From contig CALJDH010000311.1 of the NCBI GenBank assembly GCA_938023895.1, forward strand, positions 1 through 14,947: a DNA stretch of 14,947 nt, read 5' to 3'. The position numbers and the translations under genes were made by a program. This document shows positions 2,563 through 14,947 of this stretch, one piece after another. How positions within the stretch are numbered: the stretch's first letter is position 1; each line of letters begins with the position of its first letter. Under the pieces are notes generated by a model. It saw only the letters and a list, made by a program, of their open reading frames with translations. It did not search any database and had not been told where the DNA came from. The DNA comes from an uncultured Aliiroseovarius sp. GTDB taxonomy: Bacteria > Pseudomonadota > Alphaproteobacteria > Rhodobacterales > Rhodobacteraceae.

Positions 2563-3261
2563 ATGCTGACCCGCAAGCAGTTGGAGCTTCTGGAATTTAT
2601 CCACAAACGCATGCAAAAGGATGGTGTATCGCCGTCTTTTGACGAGATGAAAGAGGCGCTGGACCTACGCTCCAAGTCCGGCATTCACCGTTTGATCACA
2701 GCGCTTGAGGAACGCGGTTTTATCCGCCGCCTCGCCCATCGCGCCCGCGCGATCGAGATCGTAAAACTGCCCGAGACCATGGAAACTGGCGGCCGTGCCG
2801 GGTTCGAACCGCGGGTAGTTGAAGGCGGGCGCCCTGAAAGCACGCCAAATACCGCGATGCCCTTGGACGCGCTCGGCGTGAACGAGCTTCCGCTTCTGGG
2901 CCGGATTGCTGCAGGCGAGCCGATCGAAGCCATCACCGATGGGGCACAACATGTGTCTGTACCCGGCGCGATGCTGGGTTCTGGCGGACGCCACTATGCG
3001 CTTGAAGTGAAAGGCGACTCGATGATTGACGCCGGGATCAACAACGGAGATGTCGTTGTGATCCGCGAAACCAATCAAGCTGACAATGGCGACATCGTGG
3101 TTGCACAGGTTGATGGCTACGAGGCAACGCTGAAACGCTACCGCAAGAACGGCGATATGATCGCGCTTGAGGCGGCAAACCCTGCCTATGAAACCCGCCT
3201 TTTGCCTGAAGGTCAGGTGAAAGTGCAGGGTAAGCTGGTCGGGCTGATCCGGACCTACTAA
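2563..3261 (+). CDS. lexA: LexA repressor, SOS response regulator
   Basis: LexA represses DNA-damage genes and inactivates itself by cleavage when RecA filaments form. The 232-residue protein has an N-terminal winged helix-turn-helix (about 1-66) with [11 protein letters not shown] and the recognition region [10 protein letters not shown] linker leads to the cleavage site Ala117-Gly118 in GRIAAGEP, and the S24-type peptidase domain carries the catalytic Ser153 (GDSM) and Lys191 (EATLKRY). The extended linker around residues 70-105 is longer than in E. coli LexA (202 residues), as is common in alphaproteobacteria. The start is set by GGAGG at 2551-2555, seven bases before the ATG. It has its own promoter with tandem LexA boxes and ends at a terminator shared with the convergent phaR. 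Confidence 0.97.
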
Positions 3262-3335: not shown

Positions 3336-3896
3336 TTAGCTGAGTTTAGACAGCTTCGACTGAAGCTCGACCAATTGCTTCTTTATCTTATCCAGCTCGT
3401 CGGCATCACCTGACTTCTCTTCCGTTTCGCTATCCTGCGTTGGTCCCGAAGATCCGGAGAAGCCGCTCATCATCGCTTTCATGAAGGCTTCCTGCTGGGC
3501 TTGCATGGCCTCGAACCCCGGCATGTTCGCCATGGGATTGCCGATGCCGCCAAAATTTTCCATCATCTTCGACTGACCATCACGCAGCATCTCGAAGCTG
3601 GCCGCAAGAAACTGCGGCACAATGCTTTGGGCCTGCGTGGTATAGGAACGGACCAGATCGGTCAGCACATCCACCGGCAAGACGTTTTCGCCGCGGCTTT
3701 CGTGTTCCGCAATAATTTGCAGTAGATACTGACGCGTCAGGTCATCACCGGATTTCAGGTCAATGATCTGCACCTCGCGCCCATCACGGATGAACCCCGC
3801 AATGTCGTCCAAGGTGACGTAATCGGACGTTTCCGTATTATAGAGCCGCCGGCTTGCATATCGCTTGATCAGCAGCGCGTCCTGAGACTTGTTCAT
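3336..3896 (-). CDS. phaR: Polyhydroxyalkanoate synthesis repressor PhaR
   Basis: PhaR is a cytosolic repressor of phasin and other PHB genes that binds DNA and also PHB granules, so granule formation titrates it away and derepresses phaP. The protein is 186 residues. The N-terminal PHB/PHA DNA-binding domain (about 8-70) contains LIKRYASRRLYNTETSDYV, the family signature. The PHB accumulation domain follows (about 73-115), then a Met/Gly-rich linker and a C-terminal Lys/Leu coiled-coil-like segment (165-185). A frame extending 11 codons upstream exists, but GGGGAGG six bases before the ATG at 3894-3896 fixes the shorter start, and the extension would run through the operator. It lies downstream of phaP in the same direction, with its own probable promoter. 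Confidence 0.95.
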   Translation of the reverse strand: MNKSQDALLIKRYASRRLYNTETSDYVTLDDIAGFIRDGREVQIIDLKSGDDLTRQYLLQIIAEHESRGENVLPVDVLTDLVRSYTTQAQSIVPQFLAASFEMLRDGQSKMMENFGGIGNPMANMPGFEAMQAQQEAFMKAMMSGFSGSSGPTQDSETEEKSGDADELDKIKKQLVELQSKLSKLS

Positions 3897-3923
3897 GTTA
3901 CCTCCCCGCAGAAATTTGTCTTT

Positions 3924-3963
3924 CTGCACTGCAAAATCCTAACAGCGCGGGGCGTAAAGGCAA
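3924..3963 (-). promoter_or_regulatory. phaR promoter with a PhaR operator (autoregulation)
   Basis: Read on the minus strand, a candidate -35 TTGCCT (3958-3963) and -10 TAGGAT (3936-3941) are separated by 16 bases, each a 4/6 match. Just downstream of the -10, at 3924-3934, lies CTGCACTGCAA (plus strand), one base from the reported PhaR site CTGC-N3-GCAG. The 13 bases at 3921-3933 are identical to 4608-4620 in the phaP operator. The operator position at the expected transcript start suggests negative autoregulation. The operator call is stronger than the hexamers. Confidence 0.65.
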
Positions 3964-3995
3964 GACTTTTGCTCAAATTCCGTGCGGAACCCTCA

Positions 3996-4027
3996 AAAAG
4001 AAAAGGACGGGTCAATGACCCGTCCTT
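3996..4027 (-). terminator. Intrinsic terminator downstream of phaP
   Basis: A perfect 10-bp stem AAGGACGGGT (4003-4012) / ACCCGTCCTT (4018-4027) is followed on the minus strand by a T-rich tract (complement of 3996-4004). It lies 44 bases past the phaP stop and before the phaR promoter, so it should insulate abundant phaP mRNA from phaR. A second, imperfect GC hairpin (TGCCGGAG... on the minus strand, about 4036-4060) lies between the phaP stop and this terminator. Confidence 0.85.
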
Positions 4028-4071
4028 CAGGAAGTTGCCGGGGGGAGGAGTGCTCCGGCATATATCCTTAC

Positions 4072-4515
4072 TTATTTCGAGGTTGCCTTTTTGGCAGCTT
4101 TCGAAACTTCGTCGGTTGCTTTTTTAACTGCAGCCTGAGCTTCTTCGCCCAGCTCTTTGCCGGCAGCCATCATCAACTCAACGGTTTCAGCTTGAACTTT
4201 TTTAGCAACTTCAGCGAAAGCAGCCATATTTTCAGCAGCCAGTTCAGCCTGAGCCGAAGCGAAGTCGGTCATGGCTTTGGTGTAGTCGGTTGCTTCGTCT
4301 TTGGCAGCAGCAACGTCACCCATTTTGGCCAGGGTTTCTTTGGTCCACTTGGTCGAGATCTCGGCCGATTTGTCAGCAGCCTGCAGGGCTACTTTCGACA
4401 TTTTCTCGCCCAGGGCGGCCTGGTTTTTGAAAGCGTCTTGAGCAATCGACATGTCCATCGGGAAGTTGGCCATCATGTCCTGGAACATTTTGTTGAAGTC
4501 TTGAGTCTTAGTCAT
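4072..4515 (-). CDS. phaP: Phasin, PHB granule surface protein
   Basis: Phasins coat intracellular PHB granules and control their number and size. The 147-residue protein has no predicted membrane segment and is nearly all amphipathic helix rich in Ala, Lys, Glu and Met. Blocks such as MFQDMMANFPMD (10-21), the central KWTKETLAKMGDVAAAKD region (56-73) and a Lys/Ala-rich tail (128-147) fit the phasin_2 family. The start at 4513-4515 is chosen because AGGAG lies about ten bases upstream; a longer frame adding 19 residues has no such site. Its codons favour GCT, GTT, AAA and GAA, unlike the GC-ending codons of its neighbours, which fits very high expression. It is preceded by two PhaR operators and followed by its own terminator. 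Confidence 0.92.
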   Translation of the reverse strand: MTKTQDFNKMFQDMMANFPMDMSIAQDAFKNQAALGEKMSKVALQAADKSAEISTKWTKETLAKMGDVAAAKDEATDYTKAMTDFASAQAELAAENMAAFAEVAKKVQAETVELMMAAGKELGEEAQAAVKKATDEVSKAAKKATSK

Positions 4516-4574
4516 CTTAAAGCTCCTAGAGTTGCGGGGGCGCCGGGAGAAAGCGCCGTTCTGTTTCTGCAACC

Positions 4575-4603
4575 AATATGTATGCTGCAGTGCAGCAAAT
4601 CAA
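4575..4603 (-). promoter_or_regulatory. Candidate phaP promoter with operator in the spacer
   Basis: On the minus strand, TTGATT (4598-4603) and CATATT (4575-4580) are separated by exactly 17 bases, each a 4/6 match to the sigma-70 consensus. The spacer contains an intact CTGC-N3-GCAG element (4585-4595), so PhaR bound there would directly exclude polymerase. The implied leader before the phaP ATG is roughly 50 bases. The hexamers are modest on their own; the operator placement raises confidence. Confidence 0.6.
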
Positions 4604-4625
4604 GTTTTTTCTGCACTGCAGCATA
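4581..4625. promoter_or_regulatory. Double PhaR operator as a 15-bp perfect inverted repeat
   Basis: TATGCTGCAGTGCAG (4581-4595) is repeated in inverted orientation as CTGCACTGCAGCATA (4611-4625), a perfect 15-bp match separated by 15 bases. Each arm contains CTGC-N3-GCAG, the motif reported for PhaR in Rhodobacter and Paracoccus. One copy sits between the phaP -35 and -10, the other upstream of the -35. The spacing between site centres (28 bases) is close to, but not exactly, three helical turns. The expected role is PHB-dependent repression of phaP. Confidence 0.82.
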
Positions 4626-4666
4626 TACCGCTTTAAGTTGTTGATTTCACAAGCCCTTAGACGACA

Positions 4667-6472
4667 CTAGGCTTCCGGTACCGCCCTTACGTAGGTTCCG
4701 GGTGCTGGCGCAAGCGGCTGGTGCGACGAATCACCGGGCTCGCGCGCATCGACCTTCTTGCCGGACTTCTTAGACAGCCATTTGTCCCAGCGGCCCCACC
4801 ACGATCCTTCGTGGAAGCTGGCACCTTCCTGCCAGTCCTCGGGTGCCTCGGTCCAATCCTGGTTGGTATAGTGCCCGTATTTCTTCTTCGAGGGCGGGTT
4901 CACGATCCCTGCGATATGACCGCTTTCGGACAGGATAAAGGTCTTGTCCTTGCCGGACATCTGCCGCATCCCGATATAAGAAGACTTCCACGCAGCGATG
5001 TGATCGGTCTCGCAGGCGATGGCGCAGATCGGAGTCTCGACATCCGACAGCTTCAGGGTTTCACCCAGCAGGTTAAATCCATCCTCAGCGAATTCGTTGC
5101 CCACACACAGCCCGCGCAGATACTCGACTGTCATCTTGGCTGGCAGGTTGGTGCTATCGCCATTCCAGTAGAGCAGATCAAAGGCCGGTGGCGTCTTACC
5201 CAGCATGTAGCTGTTGATTGCCGGACCATAGATCAGGTCATTTGGGCGCAAGTACGAGAAGGTGCGCGACATGAAGAAGCTATCCAGATAACCGCGTTCG
5301 GTCACCTCTTCTTCGATTCCGTCGACGAAATCCTCATCCAGGAACACACCAACCTCGCCCTGATCCGCGAAATCGGTCAGCGTGGTAAAGAATGTGGCCG
5401 AGTTCACCGACTTGTCGCCACGCTTCTTCATCAGCGCCAGCGTCAGGGACAACGTGGTGCCCGCAATACAATAGCCAACAACGTTTACCTTCTGCTGACC
5501 TGTGATCGCTTTCACCTCGCGGATCGCAGCCATATAGCCGTCTTCCACGTAATCCCCCAACCCTACATCACTATATGTAGCGTCCGGGTTGACCCAACTG
5601 ACAACAAACAGCGTATAGCCCTGATCAACGATCCATTTGATCAGGCTGTTCTGTTCTTTCAGGTCCATGATGTAGAACTTGTTGATCCAGGGCGGGAAGA
5701 TGATCAGAGGCCGCGCATAGACCTTCTCGGTCGTGGGGGTGTATTGGATCAGCTCGATCATGCGGTTGCGATAGACGACCTCGCCGGGGGTAGTCGCGAT
5801 GTTTCCACCAACCTCGAATGCGCTTTCGTCGACCAGCTTGACCAGAAGCTCGCCGTCATTGGCCTCCAGATCCGACACAAGGTTCTCCAGCCCATCGACC
5901 AACGACTGACCGTTCGTCTCGATCGCGCGTTCCATCGCGTCGGGGTTGGTGCCCAGAAAGTTTGTCGGGCTCATCATGTCGATCATTTGCTGGGTAAAGA
6001 AGTCCAGTCGCTTGCGCTCATCTGCATCCAGCCCTTCGACACCGTCCAAGGCTTCAGACATCGCACCCGAGGTGATCTGATACTGCCGCTTCAGATAATT
6101 AAAGTAAGGATGCGTTTCCCAAAGGGGGTTCGAGAAACGGCGATCCTTGGGACCGTTGTCTTCAGGGGCTTTGAACTCGCCCGACATCAGGGCCGACTGC
6201 GCTTCGACCGCGTGTTCCAGCGTTTTGCCCCAGAAGGCGGCCTGCTGTTCGATCATTTTCGCGGGGTTGGCCATCATGTCGGACCACATCGAATTGGCCG
6301 CCTTGATATAAAAGTCCTGCCCCGGGCCCTGAAGGCTGGGACGTACGGGTTTTCGGTTTGACATGATCTCGCCCAGACGGGTGGACAGCTCTTCAATCTT
6401 AGCAAGATTCGCGCCCAATTCGCTGGTATCCGGCACCAAACCTGCCGAAGTTTCTTTTTGATCAGTTGTCAT
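4667..6472 (-). CDS. phaC: Class I polyhydroxyalkanoate (PHB) synthase
   Basis: PhaC polymerises (R)-3-hydroxybutyryl-CoA into PHB at the granule surface, releasing CoA. The 601-residue length fits class I enzymes, which work without a PhaE or PhaR synthase subunit. The N-terminal PhaC_N domain covers roughly 115-290, with the alpha/beta-hydrolase catalytic domain after it. The triad is visible: Cys335 in VVGYCIAGTT, Asp490 in CETDHIAAW and His519 in SESGHIAG. The box reads G-Y-C-I-A-G, so Ala replaces the first Gly of the usual G-x-C-x-G-G; I believe this variant is common in Rhodobacterales. A G-rich AGGGGGGA lies about ten bases before the ATG. The gene is upstream of phaP, with no terminator between them, and divergent from phaZ. 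Confidence 0.97.
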   Translation of the reverse strand: MTTDQKETSAGLVPDTSELGANLAKIEELSTRLGEIMSNRKPVRPSLQGPGQDFYIKAANSMWSDMMANPAKMIEQQAAFWGKTLEHAVEAQSALMSGEFKAPEDNGPKDRRFSNPLWETHPYFNYLKRQYQITSGAMSEALDGVEGLDADERKRLDFFTQQMIDMMSPTNFLGTNPDAMERAIETNGQSLVDGLENLVSDLEANDGELLVKLVDESAFEVGGNIATTPGEVVYRNRMIELIQYTPTTEKVYARPLIIFPPWINKFYIMDLKEQNSLIKWIVDQGYTLFVVSWVNPDATYSDVGLGDYVEDGYMAAIREVKAITGQQKVNVVGYCIAGTTLSLTLALMKKRGDKSVNSATFFTTLTDFADQGEVGVFLDEDFVDGIEEEVTERGYLDSFFMSRTFSYLRPNDLIYGPAINSYMLGKTPPAFDLLYWNGDSTNLPAKMTVEYLRGLCVGNEFAEDGFNLLGETLKLSDVETPICAIACETDHIAAWKSSYIGMRQMSGKDKTFILSESGHIAGIVNPPSKKKYGHYTNQDWTEAPEDWQEGASFHEGSWWGRWDKWLSKKSGKKVDAREPGDSSHQPLAPAPGTYVRAVPEA

Positions 6473-6500
6473 AAGACGAATTCCCCCCTATCATTTCGCT

Positions 6501-6512
6501 ACTGCAGCATAT
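6501..6512. promoter_or_regulatory. Partial PhaR-like site in the phaC-phaZ divergent region
   Basis: ACTGCAGCATAT here is identical over 12 bases to the outer half of the phaP operator (4616-4627), but the second GCAG half is degenerate: the minus strand reads CTGCAGTAGCG. It lies 29 bases upstream of the phaC ATG and 72 bases upstream of the phaZ ATG in the 111-base intergenic region. It may be a weak PhaR site controlling one or both genes, or a decayed copy. I saw no convincing -35/-10 pair for either gene. Confidence 0.5.
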
Positions 6513-6583
6513 CAAAAACCGCATGTGTTAAGGACTATGCAAACGCAGCACCGAAAAAGCAAAGGCTAATTAGGGGATTGTGC

Positions 6584-7900
6584 ATGCGCTATATGGCGAC
6601 CTACGACCTGATGGAGACCATCCGGAATACGAATCAGTGGCTTGGCGCCACGGCTGCAGCAATGGGCTCCTACCCGGCGACGGCTTTGTTCCCCAGCCCT
6701 GTGTTTCAAATGATGGCCGCCTGGGGCGAAGTCACCGAGCGCAGCTTTCACCGTATGATTGTAAAGCCGGACTGGGGCATCACCAGTGTGGTGGCCGAAG
6801 ACGGGCGTGATCACGTGGTGCAGATCGAGAAGCTGGTCGAGCGTCCCTTCGGCGATTTGATCCAATTCAAGGTTCTGGGCCGTCCAGAAAAAGCACGCCG
6901 CGTGATGCTGGTTGCCCCCATGTCGGGCCACTATGCGACGCTGCTGCACTCGACCGTCGCCAGCCTTCTGCCCGACGCCGAAGTCTATGTGACCGACTGG
7001 CACAATGCCCGTGACATCCCGGTCAGCGAAGGCAAGTTCGACGTCGAAGATTATACCCTCTATCTGGTGGACTTCATGCGCGCCCTTGGCCCGGACATCA
7101 ACGTTGTGGCTGTGTGCCAACCAGCCCCGCTGACGTTGGCCGCCACCGCCTATCTGGCTGAGATCGACCCCGAGGCGCAGCCGCAGACCCTGACCCTGAT
7201 CGGTGGCCCGATCAACCCGGATGCAGCTGCCACCGACGTGACCGACTTTGGTCGTCGCGTGACCATGGGCCAGCTGGAAGAACTGGCAATTCAGCGCGTA
7301 GGCTTCAAGTATGACGGTGCGGGCCGCATGGTCTATCCGGGCCTGCTGCAGCTGGCCGGCTTCATGTCGATGAACTCCGAGACGCACTCAAAAGCCTTTG
7401 CCGACCAGATCATGCGCGTCGCCAAGGGCGAGGCGTCGGACCACGACAAGCACAACCGTTTCTACGATGAGTACCTGGCCGTCATGGACATGACCGCCGA
7501 GTTCTATCTGTCGACCGTCGAACGTCTGTTTAAGAATTGCGAAGTCGCGAAGAACGAGTTCGTCGTGGATGGCCACAAGATCGATATTGGCGCCATCACC
7601 GATGTTGCCGTGAAGACCGTCGAAGGCACCAAGGACGACATTACCGCCCCGGGCCAGTGTATCGCTGCTCTGGACCTGCTGACGGGCCTGTCGGACGACA
7701 AGAAAGCCAGCCACCTAGAAGAAGGCGCCGGTCACTATGGTATTTTCGCGGGCAAGAGTTGGCGCAACAACATCCGCCCGCTGGTTCTGGACTTCATTGA
7801 CCAGAACGCGGGACGCCACGCCGCACAGGCTGCGAAGAAAAAGGCCGCCAAGAAGGGCAAGCCGGTTGCTGTGAAGGCCGTGAAGAAAGCTGCCAGCTAA
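6584..7900 (+). CDS. phaZ: Intracellular PHB depolymerase with Lys/Ala-rich tail
   Basis: PhaZ releases hydroxybutyrate units from native intracellular PHB granules. The 438-residue protein fits the intracellular depolymerase family that uses a cysteine nucleophile. Cys178 lies in VVAVCQPAPLTL, the counterpart of Cys183 of Ralstonia PhaZa1; Asp351 or Asp352 in TKDDITAPGQC and His384 in EGAGHYGIFAGKSWR complete the triad. A frame beginning 42 codons earlier exists, but AGGGG at 6572-6576, seven bases before the ATG at 6584, and the family-typical MRYMATYDLMETIRNTN start decide for the shorter form. The last 25 or so residues are almost only Ala, Lys, Val and Gly, resembling histone-H1-like tails. 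It diverges from phaC and ends at a strong terminator. Confidence 0.95.
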   Translation: MRYMATYDLMETIRNTNQWLGATAAAMGSYPATALFPSPVFQMMAAWGEVTERSFHRMIVKPDWGITSVVAEDGRDHVVQIEKLVERPFGDLIQFKVLGRPEKARRVMLVAPMSGHYATLLHSTVASLLPDAEVYVTDWHNARDIPVSEGKFDVEDYTLYLVDFMRALGPDINVVAVCQPAPLTLAATAYLAEIDPEAQPQTLTLIGGPINPDAAATDVTDFGRRVTMGQLEELAIQRVGFKYDGAGRMVYPGLLQLAGFMSMNSETHSKAFADQIMRVAKGEASDHDKHNRFYDEYLAVMDMTAEFYLSTVERLFKNCEVAKNEFVVDGHKIDIGAITDVAVKTVEGTKDDITAPGQCIAALDLLTGLSDDKKASHLEEGAGHYGIFAGKSWRNNIRPLVLDFIDQNAGRHAAQAAKKKAAKKGKPVAVKAVKKAAS

Positions 7901-7977: not shown

Positions 7978-8703
7978 TCACGCGATGGCGCGAACCCTCA
8001 ACTGCAATGGCAACTCCATCCAAGCACGCAAACCGATATTCACATGCTCGGGCGTTTCCAGTGTCGGCAGGTGCCCTGCTTCCGGCAGGATGACCAGCTC
8101 GGCGTCCTGAACCAGTTCGGCCATGGTTTCATGGCGCTTGGGTGGGGTCAGCTTGTCATGCGCGCCACACATCACCATTGTCGGCACCTTCAATCGTTGT
8201 AGCGCGCGCTGCGCGTCCGGTCTGCGTTGTAGCGCGCGGGACTGGCGCACGAAGACCTCTGGCCCGATATCGCGGGCCATTTGGAACACCAGATCCATGA
8301 TCTCGTCTCGTTTCGGTCCGGGCGCCAGTACCTCGGGCGAGAATGCCTCGGACATCGCTTGATCCAGCCGACCAATGTTGGCGTGCACGATCTGCGGTTC
8401 GCGCCACGCGGCCTGCGCGGGCGTATCCGCCAAGGGCGAGGTCGAGATCAGCGCCAGCCGGTTCACCCGGTCGGGCGCACGTCGCGCCATCTCCATCGCG
8501 ACGATCCCGCCAAGGCTAAGCCCCGCCAGCGCAAAGCGCGAAGGCAGTTGATCCAGCAAACGCGACGCCATCTCGCGGACGGTTTCACCTTGCGTGGGTG
8601 TGGCCACAATCACTGTGTGGTCACGTGATAAGTCATTGATTTGCGGCCCGAAAACGCGTGCGTCGCACATCATCCCCGGAATCAAAACCAAAGGTTCCCT
8701 CAT
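7978..8703 (-). CDS. Alpha/beta-hydrolase, substrate unknown
   Basis: This 241-residue cytosolic protein has a single alpha/beta-hydrolase domain. It begins with VLIPGMMCDARVF (the oxyanion region) and contains the nucleophile elbow GLSLGG (Ser63), the acid Asp183 in CGAHDKLTP and His211 in PEAGHLP, all correctly spaced for an active esterase, thioesterase or lactonase. A frame 99 codons longer runs into the upstream gene in another frame; GAGG eight to eleven bases before the ATG at 8701-8703 sets the start. It is the last of three hydrolase genes on this strand, 64 bases after the previous one, with a terminator behind it. Nothing in the sequence fixes the substrate. PHB oligomer cleavage is conceivable from the neighbouring pha cluster, but this is conjecture. 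Confidence 0.88.
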   Translation of the reverse strand: MREPLVLIPGMMCDARVFGPQINDLSRDHTVIVATPTQGETVREMASRLLDQLPSRFALAGLSLGGIVAMEMARRAPDRVNRLALISTSPLADTPAQAAWREPQIVHANIGRLDQAMSEAFSPEVLAPGPKRDEIMDLVFQMARDIGPEVFVRQSRALQRRPDAQRALQRLKVPTMVMCGAHDKLTPPKRHETMAELVQDAELVILPEAGHLPTLETPEHVNIGLRAWMELPLQLRVRAIA

Positions 8704-8767
8704 GCCTGCCTCGTTATTTTTTATCTTCTTTAGCAGAACTGTGAGGGCTGCCCCGGATGGGCGCAAG

Positions 8768-9736
8768 TTATAACCCGCGTGCCCAGTCCAGAATTTTCGC
8801 GACCGTGGGATCTGTGCCATTCGGACTGACAATGTCGCCCGCCAACACATGCGCCATCGGATCATCGACCGCCGCCGAGGACACCACGTGCCGATACACG
8901 ATCCCGCCCCATCCTGCGGCAACCTTCTCGGTCGCATCGGCCGATACCACCTGATCCTCTTTAGAGTAGATGAACAGTGCCGGTACATCGACAATCCCAT
9001 AGCCCGAATTCGCCGCGACCTTCACCATCGCCGCCATCGGCATCAACGCAGTGGTGGGATAGCTTTCCGTCCAATACTTGGCTTGCGCGTCATTGATTGG
9101 CGTGAAGCCACGGGTGGAGCCCACTGCCAGCGGCACCCAGTGACGCGCAGCGGGGAAGGTCAGAAGGGCGGCCTTGGAATCCTTAATCCCGAAATTGGGC
9201 GAGATGAAAGTGATCCCCTTCACAGCTTTGGACGCCGTGTCGTCAAACATGCCAAGCGCCGTCACAGTGCCGCCCGTCGAGGTTGCTATGATCAGAACCT
9301 CTTCCCCGATGGCACGTCCGATCGCCATCGCCTCGGCAAAATCGACCATCCAGTCATTGACGGTCGGCCCCGCCATTGCCTCGGCGCTACGACCGTGCCC
9401 CGCCAGACGCGCATTATAAAGGTTAGCGCCCAGTCCTTCGGCCACCAGTTGTTGGGCTGGACTGATTTCCTGATGGGTGGCAGAGAACCCGTGGATATAG
9501 ACGACGGACAAGGGCGTCTTCTGCCCTGCCTCGCCTGCCCAAACGATCTGTTTCTCGGCACCGTTTACCAGATCATCGAACACCGCTTCCCGCTGCGCCA
9601 AATAGGCTTCGGGATCAGGACCGATGGCGGCTTCGTCAAACTGAACATTAAGATCAACCGGCTCGTACGGTCCGATTACGAACAGGGCCGCAACAACAGC
9701 GGATACACCCATGGCGGTACGCAACGGACCCTTCAT
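8768..9736 (-). CDS. Membrane-anchored or exported alpha/beta-hydrolase (lysophospholipase-like)
   Basis: The 322-residue protein starts with a short basic stretch and a hydrophobic segment (about 8-23), which looks like an uncleaved signal anchor or signal peptide, so it probably acts at the periplasmic face. The hydrolase domain follows: VVYIHGFSATHQEISP (79-94), the nucleophile motif ATSTGG with Ser153, Asp261 in YSKEDQVV and His296 in DDPMAHVL. The nucleophile box has Ala where Gly is usual (A-x-S-x-G), as in some serine hydrolases of the lysophospholipase / monoacylglycerol lipase type. GAGGTG precedes the ATG, whose first bases overlap the stop of the upstream hydrolase (ATGA), arguing for coupled translation. 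An 18-codon longer frame lacks support. Its substrate is unknown. Confidence 0.87.
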   Translation of the reverse strand: MKGPLRTAMGVSAVVAALFVIGPYEPVDLNVQFDEAAIGPDPEAYLAQREAVFDDLVNGAEKQIVWAGEAGQKTPLSVVYIHGFSATHQEISPAQQLVAEGLGANLYNARLAGHGRSAEAMAGPTVNDWMVDFAEAMAIGRAIGEEVLIIATSTGGTVTALGMFDDTASKAVKGITFISPNFGIKDSKAALLTFPAARHWVPLAVGSTRGFTPINDAQAKYWTESYPTTALMPMAAMVKVAANSGYGIVDVPALFIYSKEDQVVSADATEKVAAGWGGIVYRHVVSSAAVDDPMAHVLAGDIVSPNGTDPTVAKILDWARGL

Positions 9737-10488
9737 GCTGCACCTCGGGTCAGAACGACCTTTACCATTTTCTGGATCGTGCGCAGGCATTCGTCATCCG
9801 AGAACCGATGATCCGCTCCTTTCACCAGGATCAGGCGGATATCGTCGCCTTCGACATGCTCCAGCAGCTTCACGGCTTGCGAGGTCGGCACCGCGTCATC
9901 TTCGGTCCCCTGAAGGAAACGTACGGGCATATCCAGTTTCAGCGGCGAACGCAGGACGAAGTTGTCGCGCCCATCCTCGATCAGACGTTTGGTGATGATG
10001 TAGTCCTCGTCGTAATCCGAGGGGAGCGTCAGGAAGCCTTCGCGCTCCAACTCGGCTTTCTGCTCGTCGGTGAACCCAGCCCAATATCCATCCTCGGTGA
10101 AATCCGGCGCGGCGGCGATGGTCACCAGCCCCATGATCCGCTCGGGCCGCGCCCGCGACAACAGAAGCGACTGCCAGCCGCCCATCGAGCTGCCGACCGC
10201 CAGAATGGGTCCGTCGATCAGCTTGTCGACGACTTCCAGCGTGTCCTCGTGCCAGTCGCCTATGCTGCCTTCGGCAAACTCGCCCGAGCTGACGCCGTGG
10301 CCGGAATAGTCAAACCGCAGGAAAGCGCGGCCTTGCTCTTTCGCCCACGCTTCAAGCGCGACGGCCTTGGTGCCTTCCATGTCCGATTTCAGACCAGACA
10401 GGAACACAATCGTCGGCCCCTGCCCCTCTGTTTTCACATAGGCAATGCGACGCCCCTGTTTGGTGTCTAGGTGCTGGATTTCGGACAT
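9733..10488 (-). CDS. Alpha/beta-hydrolase, ABHD10-like
   Basis: This 251-residue protein has one hydrolase domain and no signal peptide. The HG-type oxyanion region reads [15 protein letters not shown] (28-42), the [12 protein letters not shown] segment (58-69) is typical of the family, the nucleophile is Ser101 in GSSMGG, the acid is Asp197 or Asp198 in GTEDDAVP and the base is His227 in GADHRFSD. The [12 protein letters not shown] and DYSGHG segments resemble ABHD10, a mitochondrial depalmitoylase and acyl-glucuronide esterase with many alphaproteobacterial relatives; this is recalled similarity, not a search. GGGAG lies before the ATG at 10486-10488, which is preferred over a 19-codon extension. 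It is the first gene of the hydrolase unit, divergent from thrS, and overlaps the next gene by four bases. Confidence 0.9.
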
Positions 10489-10568
10489 ATTGGCTCCCTC
10501 GTCTGTTGTTGGCGACGACAATATCCACCGCGTGCGCCAGTGCAATCCCTCTTGTGTCGGGTCGGGCG

Positions 10569-10660: not shown

Positions 10661-12607
10661 ATGAGCCAGATTTCCCTTACATTTCCCGATGGCAATGCGC
10701 GTAAGTTCGACGCAGGTGTAACCCCTGCTGAGGTCGCTGCCAGCATTTCCAACTCGCTGGCCAAGAAGGCCATTTCCGCCACTGTGAACGGGGCCCATTG
10801 GGACCTGCAATGGCCGATCGAGGACGACGCTCAGATCGCCATTCATACGATGAAGGATCCCGATCAGGCGCTGGAACTGATCCGCCACGACTTTGCCCAC
10901 GTGATGGCGCGTGCCGTGCAAGAGATCTGGCCGGACGTCAAAGTCACCATCGGCCCGGTTATCGACAATGGCTGGTACTATGACTTCGACCGCGAAGAGC
11001 CGTTCACGCCGGAAGATCTGGGCGCGATCGAAGCCAAGATGAAAGAAATCATCAATAAGCGCGATCCCGTCACCACCGAGATCTGGGAACGTGACCGCGC
11101 GGTGAAGTTCTATCAGGCCAACAATGAACCTTACAAGGTCGAGCTGATCGAAGCCATTCCGGGCGACGAACCGCTGCGTATGTACTGGCACGGGCACTGG
11201 CAGGATCTCTGCCGTGGTCCGCACCTGCAGCACACGGGCCAGCTGCCCGCCGACGCGTTCAAATTGATGAGCGTGGCCGGGGCATACTGGCGCGGTGATA
11301 GCGACCGCGCCATGCTTCAACGTATCTATGGTGTGGCCTTCCAGAACAAGGACGGGCTGAAGAAGCACCTGCACATGCTGGAAGAGGCCGCCAAGCGCGA
11401 CCACCGCAAGCTGGGCAAAGAAATGAACCTGTTCCACATGCAGGAAGAAGCCCCCGGTCAGGTGTTCTGGCACCCGAACGGCTGGACCATCTATACCGAG
11501 CTTCAAGACTACATGCGTCGCCAGCAACGCAAGGGCGGCTATGTCGAGGTCAACACGCCTCAAGTCGTGGACCGCAAACTGTGGATCGCCTCGGGTCACT
11601 GGGACAAATACCAAGAAAACATGTTCATCGTTGAGGTGGACGAGGATCACGCCCGCGAAAAGGCGGTGAATGCGCTGAAGCCCATGAACTGCCCGTGCCA
11701 CGTGCAGGTGTTCAATCAGGGCCTCAAATCCTATCGCGACCTGCCCCTACGCATGGCCGAGTTCGGCTCCTGTGCGCGCTATGAGCCTTCGGGGGCTCTG
11801 CATGGGATCATGCGGGTACGCGGGTTCACGCAGGATGATGGGCACATCTTCTGTACCGAAGATCAGATCACCGAAGAAACCGCACGGTTCATCGAATTCC
11901 TGTCCAAGGTCTATGCCGATCTGGGCTTCCACAACTGGACCATCAAGCTGTCGACCCGTCCGGAAAAGCGCATCGGTGAAGATGAAAGCTGGGACCGCGT
12001 GGAAAAGGCACTTGGTGACGCCTGTAATGCGGCGGGCTACGAGTATGAGATCCTCGAAGGCGAAGGCGCGTTCTATGGTCCGAAGCTCGAGTTCACCCTG
12101 ACCGATGCCATCGGCCGTGACTGGCAGTGCGGCACGCTGCAGGTGGACCCATTCTTGCCGGAACGTCTTGAGGCCAACTATATCGGTGAAGACGGCGCCA
12201 AGCACCGCCCGGTCATGTTGCACCGCGCGACGCTGGGCTCGTTCGAGCGTTTCATTGGCATCCTGATTGAAGAACACGCGGGAAAACTGCCCTTCTGGCT
12301 GGCGCCGCGCCAGGTAGTTGTCGCCTCGATCGTGTCGGACGCGGATGATTATGTGCATCAAGTCGTCGAGACCCTGAAAGCCCAAGGTATCCGTGCCGAG
12401 GCCGACATTCGCAACGAGAAGATCAACTATAAGGTCCGCGAGCACTCGGTCGGTAAAGTGCCGGTCATTCTGGCCGTCGGCATGAAAGAGGTCGAAGACG
12501 GCACCGTGTCGATGCGTCGTCTGGGCGAGAAGCACTCGAAAGTGCTGCCGCTGGACGAGGTCGCCGCCGATTTGGCCAAGGAAGCCACCGCGCCCGACCT
12601 GGCCTGA
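10661..12607 (+). CDS. thrS: Threonine--tRNA ligase
   Basis: ThrRS charges tRNA-Thr and edits mis-acylated Ser-tRNA. At 648 residues it is full length with all domains: TGS (1-62), the editing domain with its zinc-like cluster HDFAH (His76, His80) and CRGPH (Cys184, His188), the class II core with MNCPCH (Cys344), motif 2 [10 protein letters not shown] (Arg373), DDGHIF (His395) and motif 3 around [10 protein letters not shown] (His521), then the anticodon domain from about 550. Cys344, His395 and His521 correspond to the E. coli zinc ligands Cys334, His385 and His511, all shifted by ten. A frame 72 codons longer is rejected because GAGGAG lies about ten bases before the ATG at 10661 and the TGS domain starts there. 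It is monocistronic, ending at a strong terminator. Confidence 0.98.
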
Positions 12608-12625
12608 CCGCCTAAATCCTTAACT

Positions 12626-12661
12626 AAAGCGCCCTTTGACCCCGTCAGAGGGCGCTTTTTT
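12626..12661 (+). terminator. Intrinsic terminator of thrS
   Basis: A perfect 10-bp stem AAAGCGCCCT (12626-12635) / AGGGCGCTTT (12649-12658), with a possible inner GAC/GTC pairing, is followed by a T-run, 18 bases after the thrS stop. Confidence 0.92.
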
Positions 12662-13021
12662 ATGTCCAAGGGCTGTTACACGGGCTCACAAAACACGTGA
12701 GACCGCCCCTGCCGCAGCGCAGAAAGTTGTAACATTACAAAAATCTGCACGCCCAATCTTGAAAGATGTGATCCGCGCGACGGCAGTTTTCGTAACAATT
12801 CAAGACCGCGCAAACTGGCCAACCCGGCGGAAACGCAAGTTTTCTTGGGCTTTCGCCAATTGCCCGTGACCTCTTCCGCTCACGCCCGCGTTATGCGCCG
12901 CTCGCGCTGACCTGACAGGCCCGTGATCCACGTTTTCGTGAGTGGAGACCGCCCATTTCCCCGCTTAGCTTTTCCTTACCGCCTCGAAGCGGAACGAATT
13001 ACAAACCCGAAAGGAAATACG
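12662..13021. other. Gene-free region between thrS and bufA1
   Basis: These 360 bases hold no gene I can support; the one open frame here starts inside the thrS terminator, has no ribosome site and resembles nothing. GTAACA-type words occur at 12674-12680 (inverted), 12729-12734 and 12792-12797, the second being part of a palindrome. A small CAAG-TTTT-CTTG hairpin lies at 12836-12847 and an imperfect CCACG-TTTT-CGTG hairpin at about 12937-12950. Just before bufA1 the AAGGAA ribosome site is seen. The bufA1 promoter must lie here, but no -35/-10 pair stands out. Confidence 0.6.
12727..12740. promoter_or_regulatory. Palindromic operator-like element upstream of bufA1
   Basis: TTGTAA-CA-TTACAA is a 6-2-6 inverted repeat, AT-rich in a GC-rich background, about 280 bases before bufA1 and 66 bases beyond the thrS terminator. 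Its size and symmetry fit a dimeric regulator site. The regulator is unknown, and I do not match it to a known consensus. Confidence 0.4.
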
Positions 13022-13315
13022 ATGTCGAAGAAAACTGTAGCCATCCTGGGCGCCGTCACCGCTGCTGTAGCTGCCAACGCTGCTCCGGCTTTTGCTGAAG
13101 ACAATGAAAAATGCTTCGGTGTTTCGCTGGCAGGCCAGAATGACTGTGCAGCTGGTCCCGGCACCACCTGCGCCGGTTCGTCGACCATCGACTATCAGGG
13201 CAACGCTTGGAAGCTGGTTCCGGCCGGCACTTGCGAAACCATGGAAATCACCGATGCAGACGGCAAGAAACACATGGGTTCGCTGACCGCGACCGAGATG
13301 AACCTGCCCGGCTAA
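13022..13315 (+). CDS. bufA1: Bufferin precursor (DUF2282, BufA1-type RiPP)
   Basis: BufA1 proteins are small ribosomally made precursors whose cysteines are converted by BufB/BufC to copper-binding heterocycles; the product is thought to buffer copper in the periplasm. The 97-residue protein has a typical Sec signal peptide (basic MSKK, hydrophobic Ala/Val core, probable cleavage after AFA at residue 25), then a core with four cysteines: Cys31, Cys42, Cys50 and Cys71, in [17 protein letters not shown] and PAGTCETM. Unusually for RiPPs, the signal peptide is N-terminal and the modified core makes up most of the mature protein. The start is supported by AAGGAA about nine bases upstream. GCT-rich codons suggest high expression. 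A stem-loop separates it from bufB. The family match is confident; the copper role is inherited from characterised relatives. Confidence 0.92.
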
Positions 13316-13348
13316 TCCGCACAGATTTCTGACTAGTCCCCATAAGAC

Positions 13349-13379
13349 CGCTCTGGCCAAGGCCGAATTGGCCAGAGCG
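13349..13379 (+). promoter_or_regulatory. 12-bp perfect stem-loop between bufA1 and bufB
   Basis: CGCTCTGGCCAA (13349-13360) and TTGGCCAGAGCG (13368-13379) are perfect inverted repeats around a 7-base loop, 33 bases past the bufA1 stop and 33 bases before the bufB ATG. No T-run follows (the next bases are ACCCAAACG), so it is not a standard terminator. An mRNA-stabilising 3' structure for the precursor message, or a partial attenuator that keeps precursor in excess of enzyme, is the likely role. Confidence 0.75.
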
Positions 13380-13412
13380 ACCCAAACGCACAAGAACATG
13401 AAGGGCTTTGAC

Positions 13413-14291
13413 ATGCTGAACCAACGCAACAACACGACGCTTCCCGTTGGCGCTGGCGTTGGATACAAGCCGCAGCATTTCCAAGACCTTCTGAACGCGC
13501 CCGGTGCTGTCACCTGGCTGGAGATCCACGCCGAGAACTATATGGTCGACGGTGGTCGTCAGATCGCACAGCTACGTCATCTTGCGGAGCACTTCCCGAT
13601 TTCAGTGCATGGTGTAGGCGCTTCGATCGGCGGCGAGGGCCGCTTGGACCCGGAACATCTGGCCCGTTTGAAAAAGCTGGTGGATTGGCTAAACCCGGCC
13701 AGCTTCTCGGAACATCTGGCGTGGTCGACCCATGACAGTGCCTTCCTGAACGACTTGCTGCCCCTGCCCTACACGAACGACACGCTGACCCGCGTCACCG
13801 CCCATATCAACGAGGTGCAGGACCTGCTAGGCCGCAAGATGCTGCTGGAAAACCCGTCGTCTTACCTGGCCTTCGCGGAAAGCACCTGGTCCGAGCCCGA
13901 CTTCATCCGTGAAGTCGCCCGCCGCACTGGTTGTGGCCTGCTTCTGGACGTGAACAACGTCTTCATCTCGGCCACCAATCTGGAGTTCGAGGCACTGGAC
14001 TATCTGGACGCCTATCCGCTGGAATTGGTCGAGGAAATCCACCTTGCCGGCCACGACGAAGACGCGGACGAACTTGGCCGCAAGCTGTTGATCGACAGCC
14101 ACGGCAAACCCGTGGACGAGCCCGTCTGGGCGTTGTTTGACCACGTCATCGCCCGCACTGGCGCGCGCCCTGCCCTGATCGAGTGGGACAATGACGTGCC
14201 CGAGTGGGATGTGCTGGAAAGCGAAGCCGCCCGCGCCACAGCGCAGATGGAGGCCGTTGTCGCAGGACAAAGCCTGATGGTGTCCGCATGA
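13413..14291 (+). CDS. bufB: MNIO maturase of the bufferin precursor (DUF692)
   Basis: BufB belongs to the multinuclear non-heme iron oxidases (DUF692, the MbnB family), TIM-barrel enzymes that use two or three irons to rebuild cysteine side chains in RiPP precursors. The 292-residue protein shows the expected metal and active-site motifs in order: GAGVGYKPQHF (13-23), WLEIHAENYM (35-44), SVHGVG (His66), FSEHLAW (Glu100, His101), LLENPSSY (144-151), LLDVNNV (177-183), EEIHLAGH (His210, His214), IDSHG (Asp228, His230) and LIEWDNDVP (Glu257, Asp259). The start at 13413 has AAGGG about nine bases upstream and gives the usual family N-terminus; upstream frame extension would enter the stem-loop. 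The stop overlaps bufC by ATGA, so the two should be made together. Confidence 0.93.
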   Translation: MLNQRNNTTLPVGAGVGYKPQHFQDLLNAPGAVTWLEIHAENYMVDGGRQIAQLRHLAEHFPISVHGVGASIGGEGRLDPEHLARLKKLVDWLNPASFSEHLAWSTHDSAFLNDLLPLPYTNDTLTRVTAHINEVQDLLGRKMLLENPSSYLAFAESTWSEPDFIREVARRTGCGLLLDVNNVFISATNLEFEALDYLDAYPLELVEEIHLAGHDEDADELGRKLLIDSHGKPVDEPVWALFDHVIARTGARPALIEWDNDVPEWDVLESEAARATAQMEAVVAGQSLMVSA

Positions 14292-14947
14292 CCCAAGGCA
14301 CACTGACCCAAACGCCCGCCCGCGCCATCGTATCTCAGGCCGAATTCCGCGCTGCGATCCTGAACGCACAAGCCGATGTGCCCGCGGGGCTGGTGAACCC
14401 GGATGGCCAGCAGGCCTCCAAACGCTTCTCGGTCTATCGCAACAACGTGGTGCACAGCCTGTCCGAGGCGATGCTGACCGGATTCCCGGTGTTGACCAAA
14501 CTGTTGGGCGAGGAGTTCTTCCGCGAGATGGCGAAAGTCTATCTGCGCATCCACCCGCCAGCTTCGCAGCTGATGATGCACTATGGCGCGGCCCTGCCCG
14601 GATTTCTGGAAAGCTTCCCGGGCACGCTGCACCTGAAATACCTGCCAGATGTGGCCCGTCTGGAGTTAGCCCTGCGACGCGCCTATCACGCGGGCGATGC
14701 CGACCCGATTGACCCGGCTAAACTCACCACCCTTGGCCAGCACGAGTTGATGGAGGCCCATCTGACGCTGGCCCCCGCCTGTGAGGTGCTGCAAGCCAAA
14801 TGGCCCGCCAAATCCATCTGGGATTTCAACATGGCTGACGGCCCACAACCCAGCGCAGGCGGCGAAAACATCCTGATCTCGCGCATCGGGTATGAGCCGA
14901 AAACGTTTTTGCTGCCGGAAGGCGCGGCCGAGTTCATCTCGTCGCTG
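14288..14947 (+). CDS. bufC: BufC-type partner protein (DUF2063), truncated by window end
   Basis: The frame is open from the ATG overlapping the bufB stop to the last base, giving 220 residues with no stop. The N-terminal part matches the DUF2063 / putative DNA-binding domain: an early helix with SQAEFRAAIL (16-25), then RFSVYRNNVVHSLSEAM (46-62), TGFPVLTKLLGEEFF (64-78), and the LPDVARLE region (118-125). This family accompanies DUF692 enzymes and is the RiPP recognition partner that presents the precursor to the maturase; MbnC is a more distant counterpart. Typical members are about 250-260 residues, so perhaps 30-40 residues are missing. In other bacteria a DoxX-like membrane gene often follows; it would lie to the right and cannot be seen. 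Confidence 0.9.
   Translation, partial: MTQGTLTQTPARAIVSQAEFRAAILNAQADVPAGLVNPDGQQASKRFSVYRNNVVHSLSEAMLTGFPVLTKLLGEEFFREMAKVYLRIHPPASQLMMHYGAALPGFLESFPGTLHLKYLPDVARLELALRRAYHAGDADPIDPAKLTTLGQHELMEAHLTLAPACEVLQAKWPAKSIWDFNMADGPQPSAGGENILISRIGYEPKTFLLPEGAAEFISSL

Follow-up and report, generated by a model that had tools for sequence, protein, structure and literature searches.

A probable bufferin-1 operon of Aliiroseovarius or near kin, with a tandem palindromic operator and an intercistronic hairpin as its putative regulatory anatomy

Results

The window (the whole stretch of DNA analysed here, an entire contig of 14,947 bp from an assembly that is 56% complete) most probably ends in a bufferin-1 operon that belongs to an Aliiroseovarius species or a close relative, a reading to which, on family matches and comparison of loci, we give a probability of about 0.88. 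The genes bufA, bufB and bufC lie in a row, with doxX predicted just past the contig end (Table 1). The gene set itself is of an already known type and is ordinary among relatives; the regulatory anatomy around it, an operator upstream of bufA and a hairpin between bufA and bufB, is the part for which we found no description within the searches made, and an initial annotation of this DNA included neither.

Table 1 Coordinates of the operon and its putative regulatory elements in the window.
Feature	Position	Strand	Remarks
Palindrome 1	12880-12893	+	TNACG-N4-CGTNA type; exact site at -141 or -142 in 7/7 loci L030-L036
Palindrome 2	12913-12926	+	one mismatch; 15 bp from palindrome 3
Palindrome 3	12928-12941	+	one mismatch; phased 15 bp with palindrome 2
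bufA	13022-13315	+	DUF2282 precursor, 97 codons / 97 aa
Intercistronic hairpin	13349-13379	+	between bufA and bufB; 12-bp stem, no T-tail
bufB	13413-14291	+	MNIO maturase, 292 codons / 292 aa
bufC	14288-14947	+	DUF2063 partner protein, first 220 codons; contig end cuts gene

The order, strands and coordinates of the three genes are those that the initial annotation had given, with the bufC ATG (14288) overlapping the bufB TGA. The profile search that it had proposed as a check assigned all three proteins to the families it named (DUF2282, DUF692/MNIO and DUF2063) above the Pfam cut-offs: the bufA product matched DUF2282 (PF10048) at 87 bits (cut-off 22.4, E=8.3e-25), the bufB product matched MbnB_TglH_ChrH at 343.9 bits (E=7.1e-103, above the cut-off) and the bufC product matched DUF2063 at 84 bits (cut-off 27.2, E=9.4e-24). 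BufB also exceeded the cut-off of the NCBIfam bufferin-maturase model MNIO_BufB (NF050167; 375.5 bits, cut-off 310), and the earlier call of a bufferin-type operon is thereby strengthened; no BufA1 model was reported in the NCBIfam search of the operon proteins. The ApyH and ChrH models of NCBIfam stayed below their cut-offs for BufB. BufA2 bufferins are alike in combining a periplasmic bufferin with an MNIO enzyme, but the precursor here reached only 18.3 bits against the NCBIfam BufA2 model (cut-off 60). The cut bufC is about 41 codons short of the 261 in its counterpart from a related genome (L031). The PME type 1 partner of bufferin-1 operons consists of DUF2063 and an RRE domain; by Pfam, no RRE domain was found in the cut BufC (first 220 aa) or in L031. 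The closest named loci belong to Aliiroseovarius (BufB identity 98% and 97%), a genus placed within Rhodobacterales, the background that had been suggested for this DNA.

The precursor carries the four annotated cysteines at positions 31, 42, 50 and 71 (spacing C-x10-C-x7-C-x20-C), and its residues 1-25 resemble a Sec signal by eye (N-terminus MSKKTV...APAFA-ED). This spacing is kept in 104/104 loci, comprising the window, 19 further loci of the genus and 84 of the family, and in all 79 loci with a located bufA among 80 loci from named organisms, 11 of which duplicate earlier loci. A class-wide sample, in which 47 of 142 genomes matched and the best loci were taken (n=29, one of them from the same family), retained constant outer spacings, whilst the middle spacing was 7 in 17 loci, 6 in eight and 8 in four. 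The central cysteines of Buf1 are described as the targets of post-translational modification, with the first and last forming a disulphide, in the part of Antoine et al. 2025 (PMC12452194) drawn on here, and the roles that had been assigned to the four residues agree with this description. By analogy, Cys42 and Cys50 would be modified, Cys31 and Cys71 would form a disulphide and the operon would respond to copper in this organism. Two family genomes (G027 and G120) carry two tandem bufA genes, at L143 and L193.

Among solved MNIOs the nearest to BufB by sequence was 3bww (E=3.1e-41), followed by TglH and MbnB chains. Eleven BufB residues were compared (H66, H101, E146, N147, D179, N182, H210, D228, H230, E257 and D259), which we take to be mostly metal ligands. 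Each is conserved in 102 or 103 of the 103 rows from Rhodobacterales, where the one exception is a gap, and in 27/27 class rows, and all are common to the 3bww, TglH and MbnB alignments with two exceptions: the MbnB alignment stops short of H66, and TglH differs at D259. For the related enzyme FonB, the sections of PMC13097082 used here give Asp249 as the catalytic base and Arg15, Arg16 and Phe250 as selectivity sites. Matched by motif, BufB D259 corresponds to FonB Asp249, whereas Arg15/Arg16/Phe250 become Lys19/Pro20/Asn260; the asparagine fits the statement, in the same sections, that DUF2282 enzymes do not conserve the Phe250 site.

Of the 21 genus genomes, 20 gave a DUF2282 match, and the same 20 an MNIO match; in the family, sampled at one genome per genus, DUF2282 was detected in 85 of 120. 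The layout in the genus places thrS upstream of the operon and doxX downstream, the latter 3' of bufC in all 18 relatives whose contigs reach past bufC (17 loci by ORF clustering and L037 by direct reading; the L025 contig ends inside bufB). The initial annotation had pointed to the sequence past the right edge for a DoxX gene, and these 18 relatives have it there; the window's own assembly (56% complete) has no doxX match, as expected given that the contig ends inside bufC. The doxX product of one relative (L032) scored 23.9 bits against PF07681 (cut-off 23.6), and in bufferin-1 operons generally a DoxX gene is frequent, not obligatory. ORF clustering across the 104 loci recovered doxX in 74, bufC in 72, bufB in 69 and upstream thrS in 64, figures which are undercounts owing to flanks of ca. 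4 kb and a crude choice of ORFs; a direct search found BufB in 103/104.

The one genus member in which neither DUF2282 nor MNIO was matched (G008) has a genome that is 100% complete. At the corresponding position (L313, G008:C7), a terminator-like end comes after thrS, and beyond it lie an ArsC-like gene on the opposite strand and a gene read as thyX (all by eye); the operator is absent, at up to three mismatches, from the 800 bases after thrS. As genes and operator are both absent, the whole operon is missing as a unit, and its absence from a complete genome implies that it is not indispensable.

Upstream of bufA, palindromes 2 and 3 together form CGTGA-N3-ACG-N4-CGTGA at 12922-12941, the only exact match in the window. 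With up to two mismatches, this double site occurred upstream of bufA in 19/19 testable rows (of 20) in the genus and in 50/84 family loci, where mononucleotide shuffles gave expectations of 0.05 and 0.2, and it was absent from a control stretch ca. 1 kb further upstream (0/19 and 0/82). The genus count is partly circular, as the genus rows, together with the first 29 family loci seen, had served to define the pattern; in the family loci outside those 29, the operator was present in 32/55. It was likewise found in 63/79 loci of the named set, or 51 of the 68 with bufA located (of 69) when only new named loci are counted, and in 0/29 loci of the class sample.

Exact matches to the operator in the 21 genus genomes numbered 30, of which 17 were at bufA, eight were copies of one identical string and five were single, against three matches for a reversed-pattern control. 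The repeated string lies inside an apparent ribosomal protein S4 gene (by eye, in three of the eight loci read). Across the 120 family genomes there were 88 exact matches (20 at bufA, 12 of the S4 string and 56 others; reversed-pattern control, 10), and the 56 others could be due to coding bias or could be further targets. This excess of matches away from bufA weakens the word dedicated as applied to any regulator acting here, and no wider regulon was identified from these operator matches. A looser search (29 positions, up to three mismatches) returned many matches beyond bufA, with the zero-mismatch ones, among the matches listed, all at bufA. When ORF clusters present in at least 4 of the 104 loci were inspected by eye for regulator genes near the operon, an NrsF-like cluster was seen in five loci and a LysR-like cluster in four, ca. 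3.5 kb downstream of the operon; none of these clusters was a regulator gene recurring beside most operator-type loci. A sigma-70 consensus scan of 12600-14947 returned no promoter.

The homologous operons of Caulobacter are preceded by GTAACC-N16-CGAA, reported as their SigF site in the part of PMC3511200 used here, with start sites mapped by 5' RACE, and the cited part of PMC12452194 reports sigma factor and NrsF genes in Buf1 clusters. NrsF is the anti-sigma partner of SigF. This arrangement of an NrsF gene and a GTAACC-N16-CGAA promoter is not found in the genus: NrsF was detected in 0/21 genomes, and GTAAC-N16-18-CGAA (one mismatch) in 3/19 rows vs. 1.95 expected. Within the family NrsF occurred in 17 of 120 genomes, 14 of which have bufA, and it lay within ca. 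3 kb of bufA in 12 of those 14 and on another contig in two (the two genome lists were compared by hand). All 12 NrsF-adjacent loci carried, between -166 and -262 relative to the first cysteine codon, a GTAAC-N16-18-CGAA-like site (one mismatch allowed), whilst such a site was present in this span in none of the other 72 family loci and further upstream in 10 of them; the span was chosen after the data were seen, and shuffles expect 7.9 of 84 anywhere. The tandem operator was present in 1/12 NrsF-adjacent loci vs. 49/72 of the others, with 23/72 of the others lacking it at the threshold used. In the named set 10/79 loci had a SigF-like site and 5/79 had both this site and the operator. By its upstream sequence, the window belongs to the putative operator type and not to the SigF-NrsF type.

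The 97-nt gap between bufA and bufB folds at -28 kcal/mol (z = -2.29), with five of 200 shuffles folding equally well. Within the 120 bases that follow bufA, 90/104 loci (18/20 genus rows and 72/84 family loci) had a stem of at least 9 bp, where dinucleotide shuffles predict 6.7, compared with 17/103 control stretches of 120 bases inside bufB and 15/103 upstream of bufA. The hairpin starts at a median of 13 bases past the bufA stop. It recurred in 69/79 loci of the named set (5.5 expected) and in 9/27 of the class set (1.7 expected), here with mononucleotide shuffles. Its sequence varies between genera, and within the genus several stem pairs change on both sides, for example from C-G to T-A, in a comparison that does not allow for relatedness; pairing at the two outermost positions examined is lost in some of the 20 rows, and the fit is poor in L024 and L026. 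We rejected an intrinsic terminator, as only 9 of the 90 hairpins have at least five T in the next nine bases and a terminator scan did not list the hairpin of the window. At gathering thresholds, the window had no Rfam match. Intercistronic hairpins of an mRNA-stabilising or ratio-setting kind are known from Rhodobacter photosynthesis operons, and we read the present hairpin as a putative element of this kind.

Elsewhere in the window, trpC, moaC and moeA stand in a tight row at 1-2419 with their ends touching or overlapping. Two GTTC-N7-GTTC sites (2461-2486; two in the window vs. 0.47 expected), which we take to be alphaproteobacterial SOS boxes, lie upstream of lexA (2563-3261). A polyhydroxybutyrate (PHB) cluster occupies 3336-7900, with a PHB accumulation regulator, a phasin (its match just below the cut-off) and PhaC on the minus strand and a PHB depolymerase on the plus strand, and three adjoining alpha/beta hydrolase genes follow on the minus strand at 7978-10545.

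Discussion

The operon resembles the bufferin-1 (Buf1) operons of Caulobacter vibrioides, as far as these are described in the part of PMC3511200 used here, in its gene families, in the order bufA-bufB-bufC(-doxX) and in its DUF2282 precursor. It differs in its surroundings: SigF with GTAACC-N16-CGAA promoters there, but a tandem palindrome upstream, a thrS neighbour and a genus devoid of NrsF matches here. Comparison of these upstream and intercistronic sequences suggests, with a confidence that we would put at even, that the Rhodobacterales bufferin operon may have been rewired: a dedicated factor at tandem 15-bp-phased palindromes (TNACG-N4-CGTGA) would replace SigF-NrsF, and a hairpin whose shape is kept while its sequence changes would set a high ratio of precursor to enzyme.

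Judging from this anatomy, an unlinked transcription factor may act at the palindromes that precede bufA, and the hairpin that follows this gene would keep the precursor mRNA in excess over the enzyme mRNA. From what is known of the family, BufC would present the precursor to BufB, and this enzyme would act in the cytoplasm, oxidising Cys42 and Cys50 to 5-thiooxazoles; the product would then leave by the Sec pathway (as 72 residues, should cleavage follow residue 25), Cys31 and Cys71 would pair, and the mature product would bind excess copper in the periplasm.

The same chemistry might also serve a target that is not mainly copper, such as chromate, cadmium, gold or general envelope stress, and we do not recognise the operator as the site of any copper sensor known to us. 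In the portion of PMC3511200 cited, the response of the Caulobacter operons to chromate and cadmium runs through SigF, and members that are gold-induced or fused to MerC are mentioned in the portion of PMC12452194 (Antoine et al.) cited; however, the latter also describes a characterised bufferin that binds copper, and the Caulobacter buf genes are listed in a copper-response table (PMC8224329, from the part that holds the table), so that we regard a mainly non-copper role as unlikely.

Lys-Cys captophorins (fontiphorin, oxazolin and gonophorin) are alike in their MNIO and PME1 enzymes, and 5-thiooxazole is reported for them in the cited sections of PMC13097082, but their precursors carry EGKCG repeats where the precursor here is a DUF2282 domain. 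A RiPP of the methanobactin or oxazolin (HvfA) type, serving copper uptake or signalling, would have the enzyme superfamily in common with this operon, and BufB does score 235.6 bits against HvfB and 61.4 bits against MbnB, yet both values fall under the NCBIfam cut-offs (360 and 325), and with a DUF2282 precursor devoid of the EGKCG repeat this alternative is very improbable. A decaying or inactive operon, to which the open bufC and the lack of the operon in G008 might point, is scarcely credible, as it is the contig end that cuts bufC, none of the conserved cysteines or enzyme residues is lost and the genes persist in 20 of the 21 genus genomes.

The literature searched, which did not extend to the founding PNAS 2024 bufferin paper, yielded no description of the operator or the hairpin. 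The words 'hairpin' and 'promoter' are absent from the available text of PMC12452194 and PMC13097082, and the accessible part of the latter notes that transcriptional regulators are frequent, with reference to a supplementary table.

The operon adds one further species to a widespread, recently described class of copper buffers, and it is a near-constant operon of one marine genus (20/21), in which the loss in G008 offers a natural control. The comparison predicts a ratio-setting hairpin and a stress regulator that is distinct from SigF and has a defined binding site. If the proposed rewiring is true, the resulting high ratio of precursor to enzyme would be what a RiPP buffer protein needs.
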